Of a stretch of 64,000 nucleotides of DNA, positions 34,414-43,362 are shown piece after piece. The stretch spans positions 124,001-188,000 of the forward strand of contig NZ_QZMN01000003.1 of the NCBI RefSeq assembly GCF_003702705.1, read 5' to 3'. The notes below the pieces were generated by a model that was given only the letters and a program-made list of their open reading frames with translations, had not been told where the DNA came from and ran no database searches. The position numbers were made by a program, and so were the translations under genes. This DNA is from Ornithinimicrobium cerasi (GTDB lineage: Bacteria > Actinomycetota > Actinomycetes > Actinomycetales > Dermatophilaceae). Numbering within the stretch: position 1 is the stretch's first letter; the number at the start of each line of letters is the position of its first letter.

Positions 34414-34438
34414 CAACCTTTCGGCATACCGGGCCGTT
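34414..34438 (+). promoter_or_regulatory. ECF-type promoter of sigma cassette 1
   Basis: CAACCTTTCG (-35 region) and CGTT (34435-34438, -10 core), with exactly 16 bases between CAACC and CGTT. The same arrangement recurs before the other two sigma genes at 36452 and 41426. The -10 of the CGTT type is typical of ECF sigma factors, so autoregulation is inferred. Confidence 0.75.
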
Positions 34439-34489
34439 GGGAGGATAGGTCCGTCGCAGGGGGACGGACCACCGACACGAAGAGGTGAG

Positions 34490-34990
34490 ATGAACAAGGA
34501 CCAGGAGGAGGGCTTCGCGGACTTCGTCCGGGCGGCTTCCCCGCGTCTGCTCACCTCGGCGTGGATGCTCTGCGGTGACCCGCACGTCGCCGAGGAGCTG
34601 GTGCAGGAGTCGCTGGCGCGGGTCTACGTGCACTGGCGGCGGGTGAGGGCCGACAACCCGACGGCCTACGCCCGCCGCGTGCTCGTCAACCTGCACACCG
34701 ACCGGTGGCGCACGCGTCGCCGCGAGGTGCTCACCGACTCGGTGCCGAACACGGACCCCTCTCCTGGGCACCAGGTCGCGCTGCGTCTCGACCTCGACCT
34801 GGCCCAGGCTCTGCAGGCACTGCCGCGCCGCGAGCGCGAGTGCGTGGTCCTGCGGCACTACCTCGACCTGTCGGAGAAGGACACCGCGGCGACGCTCGGC
34901 GTCTCCACCGGCACGGTCAAGAGCTCGACCTCACGCGGGCTGGCCGCCCTGCGCGCCGCCCTGACCGAAGGGGAACCGAACCATGTCTGA
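34490..34990 (+). CDS. ECF sigma factor, SigE family (cassette 1)
   Basis: 166 residues, sigma2-sigma4 only. Region 2 is FADFVRAASPRLLTSAWMLC, HVAEELVQESLARVYVHW and AYARRVLVNLHTDRWR; region 4 is LPRRERECVVLRHYLDLS and TLGVSTGTVKSSTSRGLAAL with the helix-turn-helix. It belongs to the actinobacterial SigE-like ECF group (TIGR02983 type). ATG 34490 has a GAGGTGAG ribosome binding site and the ECF promoter 52 bases upstream. Its last 8 bases overlap the downstream membrane protein. Confidence 0.93.
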   Translation: MNKDQEEGFADFVRAASPRLLTSAWMLCGDPHVAEELVQESLARVYVHWRRVRADNPTAYARRVLVNLHTDRWRTRRREVLTDSVPNTDPSPGHQVALRLDLDLAQALQALPRRERECVVLRHYLDLSEKDTAATLGVSTGTVKSSTSRGLAALRAALTEGEPNHV

Positions 34991-36416
34991 CGACCTCGAC
35001 CGCTCCGCCGCCCTGCTCGACCGTGCCGACGAGCTCGCGCCCGTCATGTTCGTCGAGCCGGACGCCGTCATCGCCCGGGGGCGCCGCAAGGTGCACCGCC
35101 GTCGCACCTCCGCGGCCGCGGGCGTCGGCTCTCTCGCCCTTGTCGGTGCCCTGTGGCTCGGCGGACCTCTCAACCCGTTCGCCTCCACCGGCGACCCGGT
35201 GCCGGCGTCGGTCAGCTGGCAGGACGGCGTGGCCGTCGAGCTGTTCGACAACGAGCCGAACCCCGTCCACGAGGCCGACCGGGTCCACTGGACGGGCGAG
35301 CTGCGCAGCGCCCAGGGGGCGGCCTTCCCCGAGCTCGTGCTCACCCGTGACGGCGAGCAGCTCGAGCCGCTGCCCGCGCAGGACGGCCCCGGTGACGTGC
35401 TGGTCTTCGGCGTCGAGGGGTTGCGCGTGGCGGTGTGGGAGTCACCGCCGGGCAGCCTCGGCGAGACCCCGCTGTGGTCCCCGGGCGTCCACCGTGGCCA
35501 GGGCGGCACGGCGGAGGTCGACGGCGCACTCCTGCGGTATGCCGTCGCCGAGTTCGTCCCCGGCGCGTCCGCCCGGCTGGAGGAGCTGTACTGGTACGAC
35601 GAGACCGCAGCACACTCCGCCAGCCGGGCCCCGGTGGCGAGCACGAGGATGGGCGTCAACGGCTCGGAGGCGCTCGTGATGCTGGACGAGGCGCGCGAGG
35701 TATGGGGTGCGACCCCCCTCGGCGAGCACCTGGGGCCCGCCCACGTGGAGCGGCTCGTGTCGGGCTCAGGCTTGACCGGGTGGATGGGCGGGTCGCTCGT
35801 GACCACGTCGCTCGGTGTGCTGCCGCCCGGCGCGACAGATCTCGCGGTCACCCCGGACACCGCGACCCTGGCGTCCACGCCGCTCGGCTCGCGCACCGCC
35901 GTGCTGGCCGCCGACCCGAGCCTGACCGACACCGTCCCGCAGGTCCGCTTCACGCTGGACGGGGAGCAACACGTCCTGGAGAGCTACGCCCAGGACCAGG
36001 GACGGCCGCTCGACGTCGGCAGCGGGCAGGTCCTCGTCACCGCCCAGCCCGAGGCGCTCGAGATGCGCCGGGGTGAGGACTACACGCTCATTGCCGCCGA
36101 GGACCTGCGCGACGGGACGGCGTTCACCGTGCCTGTCCTTGGCGGCCATGCCGTCGTCATCCCGGGCTGGGCGCCCGACGCGGAGATCGAGGACCTTCGC
36201 GCCCTCGTCGGTACCGACGGCGACGAACGCTGGGTCGAGGTGGAGGCCGCCCACGTCGGGGCCCTGTTCGACGGCCGTCCGCTGGTCGTCCTCGGCCTGG
36301 ACCGCGGGGTGGTCGGGGAGGGTGAGACGGTCCGTGGCGTGGGCGTCCAGGGTGAGGGCGACGTCACGCCGCACACCCTCACCCAGGGCGTCGTCCCGCT
36401 CGACCCCGATCTCTGA
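34983..36416 (+). CDS. Membrane-anchored ectodomain protein, putative anti-sigma/sensor (cassette 1)
   Basis: 477 residues. Cytoplasmic N-terminus (about 40 residues: LLDRADELAPVMFVEPDAV, ARGRRKVHRRR), one membrane span (about 44-62, GVGSLALVGALWLGG) and a roughly 410-residue exterior with no recognised domain. The ectodomain shares order and motifs with the two paralogues: SVSWQDGVAVELFD, GVEGLRVAVWESP, then a YAV segment and VRFTLDGEQHVL. The ATG overlaps the sigma stop as ATGTCTGA. Position and topology fit an anti-sigma factor or sensor for its sigma partner, but no known anti-sigma fold is seen. Confidence 0.8.
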   Translation: MSDDLDRSAALLDRADELAPVMFVEPDAVIARGRRKVHRRRTSAAAGVGSLALVGALWLGGPLNPFASTGDPVPASVSWQDGVAVELFDNEPNPVHEADRVHWTGELRSAQGAAFPELVLTRDGEQLEPLPAQDGPGDVLVFGVEGLRVAVWESPPGSLGETPLWSPGVHRGQGGTAEVDGALLRYAVAEFVPGASARLEELYWYDETAAHSASRAPVASTRMGVNGSEALVMLDEAREVWGATPLGEHLGPAHVERLVSGSGLTGWMGGSLVTTSLGVLPPGATDLAVTPDTATLASTPLGSRTAVLAADPSLTDTVPQVRFTLDGEQHVLESYAQDQGRPLDVGSGQVLVTAQPEALEMRRGEDYTLIAAEDLRDGTAFTVPVLGGHAVVIPGWAPDAEIEDLRALVGTDGDERWVEVEAAHVGALFDGRPLVVLGLDRGVVGEGETVRGVGVQGEGDVTPHTLTQGVVPLDPDL

Positions 36417-36451
36417 GCCGCACGTCGTAGCCGCGCGCCACGGCCCGCCCC

Positions 36452-36476
36452 CAACCTTTCGACGTCCTGCTCCGTT
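36452..36476 (+). promoter_or_regulatory. ECF-type promoter of sigma cassette 2
   Basis: CAACCTTTCG and CGTT (36473-36476) with the same 16-base spacing as cassettes 1 and 3. It lies 43 bases upstream of the sigma start and just after the end of cassette 1. Confidence 0.75.
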
Positions 36477-36518
36477 ACCGGGGCGAGGACAGGGCAGGAT
36501 GCTCCAGGAGGAGGCAGG

Positions 36519-37010
36519 GTGAGCAGCAGTGACGACGTGGCCTACGTCGAGTTCGTGGACGCGACGAGGTCGAGTCTGCTGGCCTACGCCTGGCTGCTCA
36601 CCGCCGACGGCCACGCCGCCGAGGACCTCGTCCAGGAGACGCTGGTCCGGGTCTACGTGCGGTGGCGCAGGCTCCGAGGAGGGCAGCCCCTCGCCTACGC
36701 CCGGCGGGTGCTGTCCAACCTGCACACCGACCGCTGGCGCACCCGTCGTCGGGAGGTGCTGCGCGAGGAGGTGCCGGAGGCGGCATACACCTTCGACCCG
36801 ATGACCACCGAGCTGGTCCGCGCCCTCCAGCAGCTCTCTCCGCGCGAGCGCGAGTGCGTGGTGCTGCGTCACTACCTCGACCAGTCCGAGAAGGACACCG
36901 CGGCCACCCTCGGCATCAGCGTGGGGTCGGTCAAGAGCTACACGTCCAAGGGGCTCGCCGGACTGCGGCCGCTGCTGAGCACCACCACGGAGGAGGAGCG
37001 TTATGTCTGA
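36519..37010 (+). CDS. ECF sigma factor, SigE family (cassette 2)
   Basis: 163 residues from GTG 36519, preceded by an AGGAGG ribosome binding site. Region 2 reads YVEFVDATRSSLLAYAWLLT, AAEDLVQETLVRVYVRWRRL and YARRVLSNLHTDRWR; region 4 reads LSPRERECVVLRHYLDQS and TLGISVGSVKSYTSKGLAGL. It is about as close to the cassette 1 and 3 sigma proteins as they are to each other. It overlaps the downstream gene by the same 8 bases. Confidence 0.93.
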   Translation: MSSSDDVAYVEFVDATRSSLLAYAWLLTADGHAAEDLVQETLVRVYVRWRRLRGGQPLAYARRVLSNLHTDRWRTRRREVLREEVPEAAYTFDPMTTELVRALQQLSPRERECVVLRHYLDQSEKDTAATLGISVGSVKSYTSKGLAGLRPLLSTTTEEERYV

Positions 37011-39120
37011 GCCGACGCTGAGCCAGCTGCTGGACCGGGCGGTCCACCACGCGCCCCCGATGGACCTGGCGACCGACGAGCTGCTCGCTGCGGGACGCGG
37101 CCGGGTGCGTCGTCGCCGGGCTGCCGGGGCCGGTGGGGTCCTGGGCGCCGTGGCGGTCGTCGCTGCGGTGTGGGGCGGGCTGGCCGGAGGTGCCGGCTCC
37201 CTCCCGGGCACGACCGACCTCGGACCCGCCGGGCCCGTCTGGGAGCAGGGCGAGGTCGTCGACGCGGCGCTGTTCACCGGTCTCCAGACCATCGACGAGG
37301 AGGGGGTCGAGCACCTCTACGACGGCCGGCTGACACGGTCGGCGGGGACGGGCCCGGTCGTCCTCGAGCTGTCCGACGGCGGGGTGGTGGTCGAGCGCAT
37401 CCCGGCCGAGTCCCCGATCGATGGTCTCGAGGTCTTCGCGGGCGAGCGCATGACGGTCGCGCTGTGGGCCGAGCCGGAGGGGACCGTGTCGTCGGTGCCG
37501 CTGGTCGGCCCGGTGGACCCCGGCGGCCCGGCCGGGCGCAACCAGGGCCCCGAGATCTCCGGCGAGCAGACCGCGTATGCCGTGTGGCCGGCCGGTGTGG
37601 CGGGCCTCACCGTGCCGGACCAGGTCCGCGACGTCTACCTGATCGGCAGGGACGAGGTGGCCGCCCTCTCCGGCGCAGGGGTGGAGTCCGCCCAGCTGCG
37701 GGCGGGCGGCCAGCGCGCGCTCGCCTGGTCCGACCCCGCGACCGGGGTGTGGGGCTATGCCGTCGACGACCAGGCGTACCCGGTCCTCGTGCAACTCGGC
37801 GACCAGCCGGCGCAGACCTCGGGCTACGTCGCCTCGGAGGACGGCTTCGCGATCGCGGTCCATCTGCTGCCCGAGGGTGCTTCGGTGCGCACTGACGGGG
37901 CAGTCGAAGGACGCCTCGACAGCGCGGTGCTGGGCGGCCGCGAGGTGGTGCTCGCGGAGGCTCGGGGCGACAACGCCCCGGACGTCTCCTTCCGCCTCGG
38001 GCAGCGGGAGTACACGGGGCAGTCCTACCAGGACGACCTGCTCACCCTGGACCTCGGCAGCCAGCTGCTGTCCCCGGCCGAGTCCCTGGAGCAGCCGGGC
38101 GCGCTCCAGCTCCTCACGAGCAGCGGTGAGCGGTCGGTCCTCACGCTCGGGGCCGAGGAGCTCGAGCAGGGGCTGGTCACCTCGACGGTCGACGGTCGGT
38201 CCGTGGTGGTCGCCACCGGGTGGGACGGCGGCGCCGGGGTGCTGACCGACGCACGGGTCGAGCTGGACGACGGGACGGGACCCCGCTGGGTGGTTCCGGA
38301 CGACGTGGCGCAGATCGTGCTGACCCACGGACGGTTGGTCAGCGTGCTCGTGGTCGACCTGGCGGGCAGTGACCAGGTCGTGGCCGTGGGACGCCAGGAC
38401 GGCGACCAGGTCCAGCGGTGGGACCCGCCGGTGCTCGCCGCCGGGGTCGAGTGGCGGCAGGTGGACAGCGCCCCGGTGCCCTTCGTGGACGGGGCGGCGC
38501 TGCCCCGCCTCGACGACGGGGCCACGGACGGGGTCAGGCACTACGCCGAGGGGCCGGGGTCGGCCCGAGGGTTTGTCGTGCTGCCGGGGCAGGCGGCGGG
38601 AGCCACCTTCGTCCCCCTCCTCGAGGGGGACGGTGAGCTGCTGTCCGCGCCGGAGATGGTGCAGCAGATGGACGAGGTCGAGGTCGACGGCGACGTCAGC
38701 ACCGTCCTCACGATCGTCGGCGGGCTGGATGCCGACGGTCGGTCGACCCTGGCCGGCGTGGCCGCCCAGCGGGCAGCCGAGGGTGCCGCGAACACCTGGA
38801 CGGTGGTCGGTGATGCTTCCTCCGCGCACCTGGTCGTGGACCCGGGGCTCGTGGTCACCATCGGCGCCGAGCAGGGGGTGTGGCTGGTCTACCCCACGGG
38901 GTCGGTCGACCCGGCGCAGCTGCAGGCCGGTCGGATCGGCCAGGACCTGGCCCTCCTGGGGAGCGACCCCGGGACGGACAGCGCCCTCGTCGCGGTCCAC
39001 CCGGAGGACGCCCCGGCACCCCGGGTGGGCGTCGACGACGGGCAGCTGGAGCCGGTGGTCACCCATCCGGTGCCCCAGCTCGACCTGGTGGTGCGGGTCT
39101 GGACGCTCACCGGGCCGTGA
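37003..39120 (+). CDS. Membrane-anchored ectodomain protein, putative anti-sigma/sensor (cassette 2)
   Basis: 705 residues, the largest of the three paralogues. N-terminus LLDRAVHHAPPMDLATDELL and AAGRGRVRRRR inside, membrane span GVLGAVAVVAAVWGGLAGG (about 45-63), and an exterior of about 640 residues. It shares GLEVFAGERMTVALWAEP and a YAV segment with the others, then carries an extra roughly 230-residue C-terminal part absent from cassettes 1 and 3 (WDPPVLAAGVEWRQVD to VVRVWTLTGP). It is acidic, beta-rich in appearance, and has no cysteine pairs or catalytic motif. The ligand is unknown. Confidence 0.8.
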   Translation: MSEPTLSQLLDRAVHHAPPMDLATDELLAAGRGRVRRRRAAGAGGVLGAVAVVAAVWGGLAGGAGSLPGTTDLGPAGPVWEQGEVVDAALFTGLQTIDEEGVEHLYDGRLTRSAGTGPVVLELSDGGVVVERIPAESPIDGLEVFAGERMTVALWAEPEGTVSSVPLVGPVDPGGPAGRNQGPEISGEQTAYAVWPAGVAGLTVPDQVRDVYLIGRDEVAALSGAGVESAQLRAGGQRALAWSDPATGVWGYAVDDQAYPVLVQLGDQPAQTSGYVASEDGFAIAVHLLPEGASVRTDGAVEGRLDSAVLGGREVVLAEARGDNAPDVSFRLGQREYTGQSYQDDLLTLDLGSQLLSPAESLEQPGALQLLTSSGERSVLTLGAEELEQGLVTSTVDGRSVVVATGWDGGAGVLTDARVELDDGTGPRWVVPDDVAQIVLTHGRLVSVLVVDLAGSDQVVAVGRQDGDQVQRWDPPVLAAGVEWRQVDSAPVPFVDGAALPRLDDGATDGVRHYAEGPGSARGFVVLPGQAAGATFVPLLEGDGELLSAPEMVQQMDEVEVDGDVSTVLTIVGGLDADGRSTLAGVAAQRAAEGAANTWTVVGDASSAHLVVDPGLVVTIGAEQGVWLVYPTGSVDPAQLQAGRIGQDLALLGSDPGTDSALVAVHPEDAPAPRVGVDDGQLEPVVTHPVPQLDLVVRVWTLTGP

Positions 39121-39127
39121 GCCCCCG

Positions 39128-39514
39128 TCAGGCGGTGCGGCGGACCAGCACCTGCACCAGGTGCTCGAGGGTCACCGCCGGGTCCTCGGTGGTCCCGCCG
39201 TGGACCGGGCCCGGCTGCACGATCGTGCTCCGGGGGGCGCTGAGCCAGCCGAAGCGCGGCCCCAGCCGGTCCAGCCGGGGGGTGCTCGGCGAGTGCTCGC
39301 CGGCGGCGACACGGCATACCTGGTCCAGTGCGGAGCGCACCGCCTCCAGGTCGAGGTCGGGGTCGAGCGCAAGGGCCCGGGCGTCGTCGAGCGCGAACGC
39401 GCCCCGCAGGAAGTCGGCCTCCTGGCTGTAGAGCACCACCCCGACGTTGATGAACTCCTCGCGCTCCACGCGCGGGACCAGGCGGAGCACGACGTACTGG
39501 TAGTCGGAACTCAT
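39128..39514 (-). CDS. DUF3037 protein
   Basis: 128 residues beginning YQYVVLRLVPRVEREEFINVGVVLYSQ, the signature of DUF3037. It overlaps the HipA-like gene by 4 bases (ATGA), and the two families are commonly fused by operon in bacteria. The function is unknown. Convergent with cassette 2 across 7 bases. Confidence 0.88.
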   Translation of the reverse strand: MSSDYQYVVLRLVPRVEREEFINVGVVLYSQEADFLRGAFALDDARALALDPDLDLEAVRSALDQVCRVAAGEHSPSTPRLDRLGPRFGWLSAPRSTIVQPGPVHGGTTEDPAVTLEHLVQVLVRRTA

Positions 39515-40284
39515 GCCCTTCCTCCCGGGAGCCAGACCGCAGGGGTCGTGACGCGGGCGAGGAGGTGCTCGAGGTATGCCGCTCGCACGCTCCGGACGTC
39601 CGGCAGGTGGTCCGTGGTCTCCAGCCACCCGTCGGGCACCTGGTCCAGCACGTCCGCGACGAGCTCGGGGGTGACCTGCGGCGCCAGCTCGGCGTGCGCT
39701 CCCGGCAGGTCGGTCGCCAGCCCGCCCAGGACGTGGTCGTCGGCGCCGACCCGAAACGGCTGGGAGGAGAAGCGCTGCGGGTCCGGCGCGCGGCTGGGCC
39801 AGGAGTGGTGGAAGTAGAGCGCTGCGCCGTGGTCGATGAGCCAGGTCCGGCGGTGCCAGGTCAGCAGGTTGGGGTTGGACCAGGTGCGGTCGACGTTGGC
39901 GGTGAACGCGTCGAGCCACAGGACGCGGGAGGCGAGGTCGGCGTCCGGGGGTCGCGAGCCGTCGTAGCCGAGGGCGCCGGGCAGCAGGTCGACGCCGAGG
40001 TTGGTGCCGGGGGAGGCGTTGAGGAGGTCCTGCACCTCCTGGTCGGCCTCGTAGCGGGCCATCGCCGACGGCAGGTCGATGGTCACGAGACGGGGGACGG
40101 GCAGCCCGAGCCGCCGGGCGAGCTCTCCGACGACCACCTCGGCCACGAGCACCTTCAGTCCCTGGCCGGCGCCCCGGAACTTCACGACATAGGTCCCCAG
40201 GTCGGCTCCCTCGACGACGCCCGGCATCGACCCGCCCTCGCGCAGCGGCGTGACGTAGCGGACGGCGGTGACGTGGTCGAGCAC
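39511..40284 (-). CDS. HipA-like kinase domain protein
   Basis: 257 residues. A compact HipA-type kinase fold: GTYVVKFRGAGQGLKVLVAE (Lys for ATP and a glycine loop), LWLDAFTANVDRTWSNPNLL (catalytic D-x-x-x-x-NxD-like) and TWLIDHGAALYFHH (Mg-binding D). It lacks the N-terminal HipA_N domain and has no HipB partner; instead it is paired with DUF3037, so it is not a standard toxin. GTG 40284 has TAGCCT (40292-40297) 7 bases upstream (leaderless). Confidence 0.85.
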   Translation of the reverse strand: MLDHVTAVRYVTPLREGGSMPGVVEGADLGTYVVKFRGAGQGLKVLVAEVVVGELARRLGLPVPRLVTIDLPSAMARYEADQEVQDLLNASPGTNLGVDLLPGALGYDGSRPPDADLASRVLWLDAFTANVDRTWSNPNLLTWHRRTWLIDHGAALYFHHSWPSRAPDPQRFSSQPFRVGADDHVLGGLATDLPGAHAELAPQVTPELVADVLDQVPDGWLETTDHLPDVRSVRAAYLEHLLARVTTPAVWLPGGRA

Positions 40285-40363
40285 GTGCGTCAGGCTAGCC
40301 GCCCCGTCGCGCTGACGCGGCCGCCCGCCCACGGCCTCCGGCTCGGCGTGGTCGCTCGACGAC

Positions 40364-40406
40364 GACCTTCATCGCCCTCTGGCACGATGAAGGTCCCGCC
40401 AGGGCG
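40364..40406. repeat. Interlocked inverted repeats (pseudoknot-capable)
   Basis: Arm A GACCTTCATCG (40364-40374) pairs with CGATGAAGGTC (40385-40395). Arm B CGCCCT-CT-GGC (40373-40383, in the loop of A) pairs with GCCAGGGCG (40398-40406). The order A-B-A'-B' cannot form two separate hairpins but can form an H-type pseudoknot or two alternative hairpins. It lies between the VOC gene end and the HipA-like start. Confidence 0.7.
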
Positions 40407-40413
40407 ACCACCC

Positions 40414-40857
40414 TCAGCCGAGGTCCTCCCGGGTCATCGTCGCCGGGTCGTACTCCCGGCGCTCGACCAGGACCATCCAGTTGCCGGAGTTGTCGCGCAT
40501 CAGCGCCTCCACGCCGTAGGGCCGCTCGGCCGGCTCCTGCAGGAACTCCACCCCCTTGGCGACGAGCTCCGCGTGGGTGGCGCGGCAGTCGTCCACGGTG
40601 AGACCCACGCCCGGCAGCCCGCCGTCGGCCTGAGCCCGCCGCATCGCCTCGACGAGCTCCGGGGACAGCGGCTCCCCGGGGGTGGTGAGGTGCAGGTGGA
40701 GCTCAGGCTGTTGCGGGTGCACGACGGTCAGCCACCGGAAGTCGGGGCCGAGCCGCACGTCGTCACCCTTCTCGAAGCCGAGGACGTCGGTGTAGAAGGC
40801 GAGGGACTCGTCCAGGTCGGTGACCCAGACGCTGACGAGGGAGACGTTGGTGATCAT
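40414..40857 (-). CDS. VOC (glyoxalase/bleomycin resistance) family protein
   Basis: 147 residues with one VOC unit pair: VSVWVTDLDESLAFYTDVLG, WLTVVHPQQPELHLHL, VGLTVDDCRATHAELVAKGV and the C-terminal RDNSGNWMVLVER. Metal-ligand and substrate residues cannot be assigned with certainty. It follows the AraC-type gene by 10 bases in one operon, a frequent AraC-VOC pairing in which the regulator controls a detoxification or resistance enzyme. Confidence 0.88.
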   Translation of the reverse strand: MITNVSLVSVWVTDLDESLAFYTDVLGFEKGDDVRLGPDFRWLTVVHPQQPELHLHLTTPGEPLSPELVEAMRRAQADGGLPGVGLTVDDCRATHAELVAKGVEFLQEPAERPYGVEALMRDNSGNWMVLVERREYDPATMTREDLG

Positions 40858-40867
40858 GGGCTCGACG

Positions 40868-41407
40868 CTAGCCTCCGTCTGGCGGGGCTGGCTTCTCCTC
40901 GGTTGCGCTCCGGTCGGGGCGGTCGGGGCGGTCGGGGCCGTCGGGGGCGGGTGCGGCGCTCCTCCGACGCTCCGCCAGCCCCCACATGAGCACGTAGCAG
41001 CCGGGGATGCGCGGGGCGCCGGACACGGCATACCTGCGCTGGAACGCGCTCGGGGTCTCGCCGGTGATCTCGTGGAAGCGGCTGCTGAACGACCCGAGGC
41101 TGCTGAACCCGACGGCATGGCAGACCTCGGTGACCGTGAGGTTGGTGCTGCGCAGCAGGTCCTGGGCCCGCTCCACCCGCCGCTCGGAGAGGTAGGCGCC
41201 TGGGGTCCGCCCGTAGGTGCGGCGGAAGAGCCGCAGGAAGTGGTACTTGCTCAGGCCCGCGACGGCCGCGAGCGCGTCGAGGTCGAGGGGCTCGGGGTAG
41301 GAGCGGTCGATGTGGTCCCGCGCACGACGCAGGTGGACGAGGACGTCGCCTGGCACGCGGCCGGGAGCACGCCCGGTCGGGGCGGGGGGCCGCGGGTCTG
41401 CCGTCAC
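40868..41407 (-). CDS. AraC family regulator
   Basis: 179 residues. Only the DNA-binding region is recognisable: LRRARDHIDRSYPEPLDLDA, LAAVAGLSKYHFLRLFRRTYG, PGAYLSERRVERAQDLL and VTEVCHAVGFSSLGSFSSRF with the two helix-turn-helices. A Pro/Asp-rich tail follows. I start it at GTG 41407; a start further upstream in frame (41515) would run across the divergent sigma promoter. It likely regulates the following VOC gene. Confidence 0.85.
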   Translation of the reverse strand: MTADPRPPAPTGRAPGRVPGDVLVHLRRARDHIDRSYPEPLDLDALAAVAGLSKYHFLRLFRRTYGRTPGAYLSERRVERAQDLLRSTNLTVTEVCHAVGFSSLGSFSSRFHEITGETPSAFQRRYAVSGAPRIPGCYVLMWGLAERRRSAAPAPDGPDRPDRPDRSATEEKPAPPDGG

Positions 41408-41425
41408 GATGTCTGGCAGTGTCCC

Positions 41426-41450
41426 CCACCTTTGGACGTCCCCGCACGTT
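41426..41450 (+). promoter_or_regulatory. ECF-type promoter of sigma cassette 3
   Basis: CCACCTTTGG and CGTT (41447-41450) with the same 16-base spacing as the other two cassettes. It lies 33 bases upstream of the sigma start and between the divergent AraC and sigma genes. Confidence 0.72.
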
Positions 41451-41483
41451 GGATGGGTGAGAGTTGTCCCCGGAGGAGGCGGT

Positions 41484-41975
41484 ATGCGCGCGGTGCACGA
41501 GCAGGAGTTCGTCACCTTCTTCGACGACGCCTCGCCCCGGCTCCTCAGCGCCGCCTGGCTCCTGACCGGCGAGCAGCAAGGTGCCGAGGACCTCGTCCAG
41601 GAGGCGCTCGCGCGGACCTACGCACGCTGGGGGAAGGTCCGCGGCGGCAACCCGCTCGCCTTCGCCCGACGGGTGATGGTCAACCTGCACACCGACCGCT
41701 GGCGCAAGCACCGCCGGGAGCTGCTCACGGACGACGTGCCGGAGCCGACCGTCGGGGACCTGCGCACCTCGCACCACCTCGACCTCGTGCGTGCCCTGCG
41801 TCGGCTGAGCCCCCGCGAGCGCGAGTGCGTGGTGCTCCGGCACTACCTGGACCTGTCCGAGAGACAGACCGCCGAGGCGCTCGGGATCAGCGTCGGGTCG
41901 GTCAAGAGCTACACGATGCACGGGGTGCGCGGCCTGCGTGCCCAGCTGCTGGAAGGGGAGCAGACCCATGTCTGA
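41484..41975 (+). CDS. ECF sigma factor, SigE family (cassette 3)
   Basis: 163 residues from ATG 41484 with a GGAGGAGG ribosome binding site. Region 2: FVTFFDDASPRLLSAAWLLT, GAEDLVQEALARTYARWGKV and FARRVMVNLHTDRWR. Region 4: LSPRERECVVLRHYLDLSER and ALGISVGSVKSYTMHGVRGL. It overlaps its membrane partner by the same ATGTCTGA 8-mer as the others. Confidence 0.93.
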   Translation: MRAVHEQEFVTFFDDASPRLLSAAWLLTGEQQGAEDLVQEALARTYARWGKVRGGNPLAFARRVMVNLHTDRWRKHRRELLTDDVPEPTVGDLRTSHHLDLVRALRRLSPRERECVVLRHYLDLSERQTAEALGISVGSVKSYTMHGVRGLRAQLLEGEQTHV

Positions 41976-43362
41976 CCACGACGGCTCCGACCGCGACGTC
42001 CTGGCCCTGCTCGACCGGGCCGCCGCAGACACCCCGCCGCTCCACCTGGACCGCCACGATGTCGTCGCCCGGGGTCGCCAGCTCGCCCGGCGCCGCCACG
42101 CGGCGGTGTCCGGAGGTATGTCGATCGCCGCCCTCGCGCTGGCCGGCACGGTCTGGCTCGGGCTGGGTTGGGGAGGTCCCCTGCTGGGGACGACCGAGAT
42201 CACGCCGGCAGGCGTCTCGTGGGAGGCGGACGAGTCCTCGCCCGTGGTCCTGCCTGACGGGCTCCAGCTCGTCGGCAACGTCGAGCCCCGGACGCTGACC
42301 CGGACACCCTCGTCCTCGACCGCGACCCTCGTCGTCGACGGTGTCGAGGAGACGGTGGAGGGGCGGACCCTGCCAGGAGGTGTCGAGGTGTACGTCGGCG
42401 AGGGGGCGACGGTCGCGGTGTGGGACCACCCTCGCGGGGCGTCGCCGGAGGCGGTCGTCGTTCCCCAGCCGCAGGGCGGGTGGGGCTCGACGACGGTCAC
42501 GGTGGACGGCGAGGAGCTCAGGTACTGGGTCACGGAGGAGGCGGGGTACGTGCCGGAGGACGTGCTCTTCCACGACGGGGAGCAGATGTGGGCCGCCGGC
42601 GGGGCCGTCGCGCAGACGGCTGACCTGCGCGACGGCGAGGTGCGGCTCACGGCGGTGTCCCTCCCGGACCACGGGCTCGTGGGCTACCTCGACGGGGACT
42701 CGTTCTCCGAGGTCGACACGGTGACGGTCGCCGGTGTTGACCGGCCCTGGTGGCGGGGCGGCGGGCATGACCTCACCATGGTGGCGCGCCTGCCCCGCGA
42801 GGCGGTCCTCGCCCGCGAGGTGCTGCGCGACGACCCGCGCGGGAGCCTGGTCCGCGCCTCGGAGCCGCGACCGACCGCGCTCGTCGGACCGTGGTCGATG
42901 GTCCTCTTCGCCAGCGGGTGGGCGCCCGGAGGCCTGGACAGCTCCGACCTCCACCATCAGGTCCAGTGGTCCTCGGACGGCGAGACGTGGCACGACCAGC
43001 CGCTCGACCTGGACCTGCGCGCAGCGGAGATGCCGTCCGTGCCGGAGGGTGCCGTCGGCCCCGGCGAGGAGGTCACGCTGCTCGGTGAGGTGTACCGCGT
43101 CGCCCTCGACGCGCACGGGTGGCCCCGGTTGGTCGAGGGGGACGGTCGGACCTTCCTCACCGTGTCGGACGAGACCGGCCCTTCCGCCGGCGGGACCGTC
43201 CTGTGGCGGGAGCACTGGTGGCCCTGGTCGGACCGCAATGCGGTGCACTTCTCGGTCGGGGAGGACGTGCCTCCTGTCGGCCAGGAGGAGGCCGAGGACC
43301 CGGTGCGGATCTGGGGCCCGGCCGGGGTGGTGACCCTCGTCGCCGTGCCGGCTGGCACCTGA
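41968..43362 (+). CDS. Membrane-anchored ectodomain protein, putative anti-sigma/sensor (cassette 3)
   Basis: 464 residues from ATG 41968 (chosen by the conserved overlap). Cytoplasmic [20 protein letters not shown] and [12 protein letters not shown], membrane span [19 protein letters not shown] (about 51-69), then a roughly 395-residue exterior. It shares [32 protein letters not shown] and [10 protein letters not shown] with the paralogues, but is otherwise diverged, and is rich in Trp near the end (EHWWPWSDR). No known sensor domain. Confidence 0.8.

Follow-up and report, generated by a model that had tools for sequence, protein, structure and literature searches.

The closest described counterpart of the gene pairs reported here is the CnrY-CnrH system, in which the first helix of CnrY binds sigma4 and the second binds sigma2 (PMC7406223, PMC4598750), with a separate protein, CnrX, as the sensor (PMC4598750). 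Other known anti-sigma factors of extracytoplasmic function (ECF) sigma factors include the class I zinc and RskA types, which are membrane partners co-encoded with the sigma factor, and RsbN (class III), with a three-helix cytoplasmic domain. A class I domain is found near about a third of ECF sigma factors (PMC7406223). The control of those without an obvious partner has been posed as an open question (PMC8103513), and transmembrane (TM) proteins encoded beside ECF genes of Streptomyces venezuelae have been described as plausible anti-sigma factors of unknown family (PMC11256431). We analysed a 64,000-nucleotide stretch of an Ornithinimicrobium cerasi contig (the window, to which all unlabelled coordinates refer). 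It carries three cassettes, each made of a SigE-type ECF sigma gene and an overlapping gene for a single-pass membrane protein, here called the partner. Judged from its sequence, each pair is probably an autoregulated ECF sigma factor with its membrane-bound anti-sigma factor.

The three sigma genes exceeded the curated cut-off of the SigE family model TIGR02983 (141.55 bits), with 180.9, 165.1 and 170.5 bits for sigma 1, sigma 2 and sigma 3, respectively. In all three cassettes, the sigma gene and the partner gene share the same eight bases (ATGTCTGA). An earlier note on this DNA had named the SigE-type sigma genes, this identical overlap and a basic juxtamembrane segment in the partners; all were confirmed, the segments read including ARGRRKVHRRR and AAGRGRVRRRR. 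The overlap was constant across the genus set, which comprised the window and loci L005-L032 (sigma genes of at least 200 bits by a custom profile; L004, a copy of the window, was excluded). The partner ATG lies 8 bases inside the sigma stop in 31 of 31 distinct genus sigma genes, with ATGCCTGA or ATGACTGA as the overlap in some relatives.

The partners' first ~62 residues, referred to as the module, comprise two predicted helices, a basic patch and one TM segment. The AlphaFold helices span residues 4-18 and 26-44 in partner 1, and 7-20 and 29-49 in partner 3, with a low predicted local distance difference test (pLDDT) score. In all 58 partners examined (31 from the genus, 27 from the class), the 16 residues before the TM segment carried a net charge between +3 and +9. 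No Pfam or NCBIfam family above its cut-off lay over the module in 63 partners (the three of the window and 60 of the class).

The cytoplasmic end of the partners is, as in CnrY, predicted to form two helices that would act on an ECF sigma factor. The partners differ from CnrY in carrying a large ectodomain in the same protein, in phylum and in sigma family, and no sequence match between them was found. RsbN has one helix more than the two predicted, at low confidence, in the partners. The zinc and RskA anti-sigma factors resemble the partners in being co-encoded membrane proteins; the HxxxCxxC zinc motif was absent from all 58 partners, a motif that RskA-type members may lack too. No zinc or RskA anti-sigma model of Pfam or NCBIfam matched the three partners at E ≤ 1, and the list of families for 60 relatives from the class (E ≤ 0.001) contained no anti-sigma model. 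The earlier observation that no classic anti-sigma domain is visible therefore stands. In the same genome, three other ECF sigma factors (L107, L108 and L110) have partners with HxxxCxxC. Positions 18-69 of the NCBIfam model NF038083 (CU044_5270) match the module and TM segment of the L077 partner, scoring 20.6 bits where the cut-off is 100. The model was found at E ≤ 0.001 in 7 of the 60 class partners (best 1.2e-5) and in none of the three window partners. No published description of this partner family was found, the main ECF classification papers lying outside that comparison. By layout, the pairs are best read as CnrY-type anti-sigma systems, with class II membership by sequence no more than putative.

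The linkage of the module to sigma genes was analysed with two profiles, in loci that were among the best matches listed for each, with the own genome excluded. The first profile, A3, was built from the first ~65 residues of 22 genus partners and gave a match at E ≤ 1e-4 in 45 of 296 genomes of the class. A SigE-type sigma gene lay directly upstream, mostly overlapping, in 27 of 29 class loci; in the other two (L047 and L061), the gene order was reversed and the sigma gene lay directly downstream. A5, a wider profile of 29 rows, had matches in 90 of the 246 phylum genomes searched, and 29 of 29 loci showed a sigma match directly upstream (at L199 this match was weak, best 4e-4; at L182 the sigma gene was split over two open reading frames; at L185 the start of the partner could not be placed). 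As four of the 29 phylum loci repeat class loci, there are 54 distinct loci, and the module adjoins a sigma gene in all 54 of these best matches across Actinomycetota. The module is portable: it is kept beside SigE-type sigma factors phylum-wide while the ectodomains differ.

Between the paralogous cassettes, identity is 57-58% for the sigma factors, 39-42% for the partners' first ~62 residues and 24-26% for the remainder of the partners; BLASTP of whole partners gave E values of 8e-14, 3e-11 and 2e-16. Ectodomain-only hhalign comparisons, from small profiles of 5, 3 and 1 sequences, gave E values of 8.5e-23 over 381 columns for partners 1 and 2, 2.3e-10 over 168 columns for partners 2 and 3, and 5.1e-6 over 108 columns for partners 1 and 3. 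Profile similarity, whose absence the earlier note would have taken as refuting its view of the cassettes, is thus present between all three ectodomains. The sigma coding DNA appears as two families of three direct repeats, with copies 65-73% identical to the reference. Homologous ectodomains, the shared overlap and the sigma-module linkage agree with the duplication and tight coupling first proposed, and the best explanation is that the three cassettes are products of duplication whose promoters and ectodomains have since diverged.

Analysis of the upstream regions identified CAACCTTT-N13-CGTT before sigma 1 and sigma 2, and CCACCTTT-N13-CGTT before sigma 3. Allowing one mismatch to the first form, the own genome (3.83 Mb) contained four sites, three of which were the cassettes, against none for the reversed-pattern control. 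The fourth site (C72:56438) was taken as chance, with no sigma gene in its locus. The pattern AACCTT-N12-16-CGTT had four exact sites in this genome, two of them at cassettes, and two in the control. Of the 31 distinct upstream regions from the genus, 20 contained exact AACCTTT-N13-CGTT, which never occurred in 300 shuffle sets. With a wider form, 29 of 31 were matched (shuffle maximum 1), a count that is descriptive only, because the form was chosen after viewing the sequences. Both regions missed belong to a cassette 3, one in the window and one in L024, and have the CCACCTTT form. A promoter search with a spacer of 15-19 found none in the 31 genus regions. In 11 further, hand-picked genomes, 36 sites with at most one mismatch were found, against 14 in the control; the 10 zero-mismatch sites were all at cassettes, judged by coordinates (at L146, by the sigma gene), and most of the 26 one-mismatch sites lay away from known cassettes.

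Beyond the genus, four patterns were analysed upstream of 48 sigma genes, drawn from 52 class and phylum loci. AACC-N15-17-CGT was present in 26 of 48 (shuffle mean 1.2, maximum 4), AAC-N16-18-CGT in 31 (mean 3.7, maximum 9) and AAC-N17-CGTT in 5 (mean 0.19, maximum 2); the fourth pattern is given below. Predicted ECF-type promoters before these sigma genes are common, and autoregulation is therefore the natural reading of the motif. The genomic counts suggest few strong predicted targets besides the cassettes. By eye, CGTT is followed by ACCG in nine of nine cassette-2 promoters and by G in 22 of 22 promoters of the other cassettes, a hint that the paralogue promoters may have drifted apart.

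With three of the four genomic one-mismatch sites at cassettes, the partner is the chief predicted target, as would be expected if the membrane protein were the main product, a surface protein under the control of a sigma factor that another protein regulates. The free variation of the ectodomains would fit this too. A mere surface protein would, however, not need a conserved inner end, and it is the cytoplasmic module that persists beside SigE-type sigma factors phylum-wide while the ectodomains change; the fusions of module and sigma described next argue for direct contact with sigma. We consider this explanation unlikely.

One fusion, L164 (552 amino acids), came from eight sigma places chosen mainly for long open frames, and was the only one of the eight to show the sigma factor in-frame with the second part of the module, a TM segment and an ectodomain. 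A second, L171 (536 amino acids, 40% identity to L164), is also fused; 59 genomes of that genus were searched. The orthologues L168, L169 and L170 are separate genes with a -8 overlap and the full module. In both fusions, the first module helix is apparently missing; by analogy with CnrY, the covalent link from sigma4 may replace the contact of the first helix. The ECF48, ECF52 and ECF53 fusions, described with a zinc-finger domain (PMC8999054), and IutY likewise hold a sigma factor, a TM segment and an outer part in one chain. L164 and L171 differ from ECF48, ECF52 and ECF53 in having no zinc finger by eye and apparently only the second half of the module.

The fusions, which hold sigma covalently at the membrane, bear on a further explanation, namely that sigma needs the partner as a co-activator or tether in the membrane, whether or not the partner also inhibits it. 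The known anti-sigma factor RskA is called a dual activator-inhibitor in one paper's title (PMC7509140), and no role test of such a partner was found in the available portions of the ECF literature. The IutY fusion, on the other hand, becomes active once proteolysis removes its fused part (PMC8999054), and we regard a co-activator or tether as very improbable.

The sample for the reverse comparison, from sigma factors to partners, was taken from a best-first list of SigE-family sigma factors over the cut-off in 50 class genomes (rows 1, 3, 5 to 79), giving 40 places that lean to high scorers, none from the own genome. To pass the layout rule, an open reading frame had to begin with ATG or GTG between -30 and +60 relative to the sigma stop codon, extend for 150 codons or more, and have its first hydrophobic stretch begin at residue 22-62 with at least three Arg or Lys ahead of it. 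The rule was passed by 31 of the 40 SigE-family sigma factors and by one (L105) of 11 other ECF sigma factors of the own genome, a set of 12 places of which one had no sigma by the custom profile and another (L111) was cut by the contig end.

Several findings weigh against an autoregulated sigma and anti-sigma pair. The module helices are predicted with low confidence (block pLDDT about 35-69). The A3 profile was weak on the 40 sampled SigE-family places, with 4 of 40 at an independent E value below 0.005. The module is therefore a broad, divergent family; A3, which recognises only part of the SigE partners, was dropped as a definition of them all. A5 was compared with PDB sequences up to E 10 and matched 24 (best E 0.005, a photosystem peptide), with no CnrY, RsbN or known anti-sigma factor among them, although the module is too short for this negative to exclude kinship with CnrY. 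Nine of the 40 sampled sigma factors fail the layout rule: L063, L064, L065, L066 and L070 have no open reading frame of 150 codons starting nearby, and in L078, L079, L085 and L096 one is present but fails the rule. Among 116 pairs of open reading frames of the window, a background containing the three sigma genes and spurious frames, 13 passed. This background is what one would expect if the layout were a chance product of high guanine-cytosine content, with Arg-rich overlapping frames mimicking a shared module; the linkage at 54 of 54 loci, the 8-base overlap common to all 31 genus pairs, and the homologous ectodomains and promoters make this extremely improbable. As for the promoters, the full pattern AAC-N16-18-CGTT was present in only 9 of the 48 regions beyond the genus (shuffle mean 0.55, maximum 3). 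In the own genome, a close pattern variant with at most two mismatches gave 19 sites (control 7), of which three were the cassettes, so that further, weaker targets are possible; ECF targets may deviate from the consensus, and with some two-mismatch excess a wider regulon is possible. One two-mismatch site (C43:352076-352100), near a fourth SigE-family sigma gene, was not counted as it lies very close to the gene's start.

The anti-sigma or sensor role that the earlier note had inferred for the membrane proteins is strengthened by the linkage, the sigma-module fusions and the ECF-type promoters, and is partly supported overall. We propose the following mechanism for an autoregulated sigma factor with a membrane-bound anti-sigma factor. 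The cytoplasmic ~45 residues of the partner, with two short helices and an Arg-rich membrane patch, would bind sigma, probably in a two-helix embrace like that of CnrY, and keep it from RNA polymerase. On the outer side, where the predicted topology would place it, the beta-rich ectodomain may sense something at the cell surface, and the signal would free sigma, most likely via proteolysis of the partner in the membrane. The freed sigma factor would then transcribe its own operon from CAACCTTT-N13-CGTT, giving more sigma and more sensor, and translational coupling would hold the two in ratio. A bolder and rather doubtful extension is a closed loop, in which the own operon would be the only strong target of sigma and the ectodomain both sensor and output. 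Each cassette would then amplify itself and act as a switch for surface display, possibly a bistable one. On this view, the two-helix membrane anti-sigma factors of Actinomycetota would form a large class, so far unrecognised, whose ectodomains are exchangeable; in some, fusion would have produced membrane-tethered sigma factors in which the covalent link replaces the first helix.

New here are the promoter motif, the portable module linked to sigma, the counts of coupled partners and the natural fusions. For many ECF sigma factors no regulator has been recognised, and the phylum-wide module makes their control directly testable. It could also let annotation name hypothetical proteins (by guess, a great many), and private promoters with exchangeable sensors are possible parts for synthetic regulation.

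The ectodomains of the three partners are 400-640 amino acids long. The G-x-x-V...TVAVW-E-x-P block that the earlier note had described as shared fits partner 3, with only a loose fit in partners 1 and 2 (GVEGLRVAVWESP; GERMTVALWAEP), and its downstream YAV segment reads YWV in partner 3. Its statement that the ectodomains have no known fold was not upheld in that form, the ectodomain of partner 1 being confidently predicted as all-beta, with immunoglobulin-like (Ig-like) segments. Foldseek and VIA searches with this model returned mostly Ig-like chains at noise level, and with the structural matches in that range an Ig-like fold is not claimed. The model of partner 3 was poor (mean pLDDT 62.6). 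Scans at E ≤ 1 gave no NCBIfam match for any of the three partners, no Pfam match for partners 1 and 2, and only DUF3483 and AMP-binding_C, weak and below cut-off, for partner 3. Residues 334-341 of partner 3 (window 42967-42990) read WSSDGETW, which we take to resemble an Asp-box (BNR) motif; partner 3 has no family match. The alignment of 60 class partners had a mean column identity of 10%, with outer parts little alike. Pfam families in these 60 were Germane (3), Gmad2 (3), and PASTA, FG-GAP, DUF4232, a BNR-type family and others (1 each).

Of the 59 genomes searched for relatives of partner 1, 23 contained one, the own genome among them, and all 23 belong to one genus. The nearest named locus was that of O. 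pekingense DSM 21552, with 92% identity to partner 1 and three cassettes in the same order as in the window. Trees of the sigma factors and of the partners had their main clades in common but differed in where they placed the clade of third cassettes and the first-cassette clade of Serinicoccus-like genomes. In O. pekingense (L024:12554-13180), the open reading frame of the third-cassette partner stops after 209 codons while the sigma gene is open, and in L026:12103-13455 the third-cassette partner frame looks shifted partway; either cassette 3 decay or draft errors would account for these. The contig L026 (QEUR01000007.1), labelled an Acidobacteria metagenome-assembled genome, contains two complete cassettes of Ornithinimicrobium type and another that reaches the locus end; the label is probably wrong. 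The O. cerasi genome has two further SigE-family sigma genes over the cut-off, at L001:2490-4066 (minus strand) and L002:1934-4083 (plus strand). In both, the sigma gene overlaps the gene of a TM partner that shares the N-terminal plan but differs in its outer part.

Table 1. Features of the three sigma-partner cassettes, in window coordinates.
Feature	Position	Strand	Remarks
Predicted ECF-type promoter, cassette 1	34414..34438	+	CAACCTTT-N13-CGTT
Sigma factor 1, SigE family (TIGR02983)	34490..34990	+	
Partner 1, module + TM + all-beta ectodomain (predicted), 477 amino acids	34983..36416	+	Overlaps sigma 1 at 34983-34990
Cytoplasmic two-helix module (predicted) + TM, partner 1	34983..35165	+	
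Predicted ECF-type promoter, cassette 2	36452..36476	+	CAACCTTT-N13-CGTT, then ACCG
Sigma factor 2, SigE family, GTG start	36519..37010	+	
Partner 2, module + TM + ectodomain, 705 amino acids	37003..39120	+	Overlaps sigma 2 at 37003-37010
Cytoplasmic two-helix module (predicted) + TM, partner 2	37003..37185	+	
Predicted ECF-type promoter, cassette 3	41426..41450	+	CCACCTTT-N13-CGTT, one mismatch
Sigma factor 3, SigE family	41484..41975	+	
Partner 3, module + TM + ectodomain, 464 amino acids	41968..43362	+	Overlaps sigma 3 at 41968-41975
Cytoplasmic two-helix module (predicted) + TM, partner 3	41968..42165	+	

Between cassettes 2 and 3, a DUF3037 gene adjoins a HipA_2-type kinase gene on the minus strand (39128-40332). 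Also on the minus strand, a glyoxalase-type protein and an AraC-type regulator are encoded directly upstream of cassette 3 (40414-41515), and the longest form of the regulator's open reading frame runs over the cassette 3 promoter.

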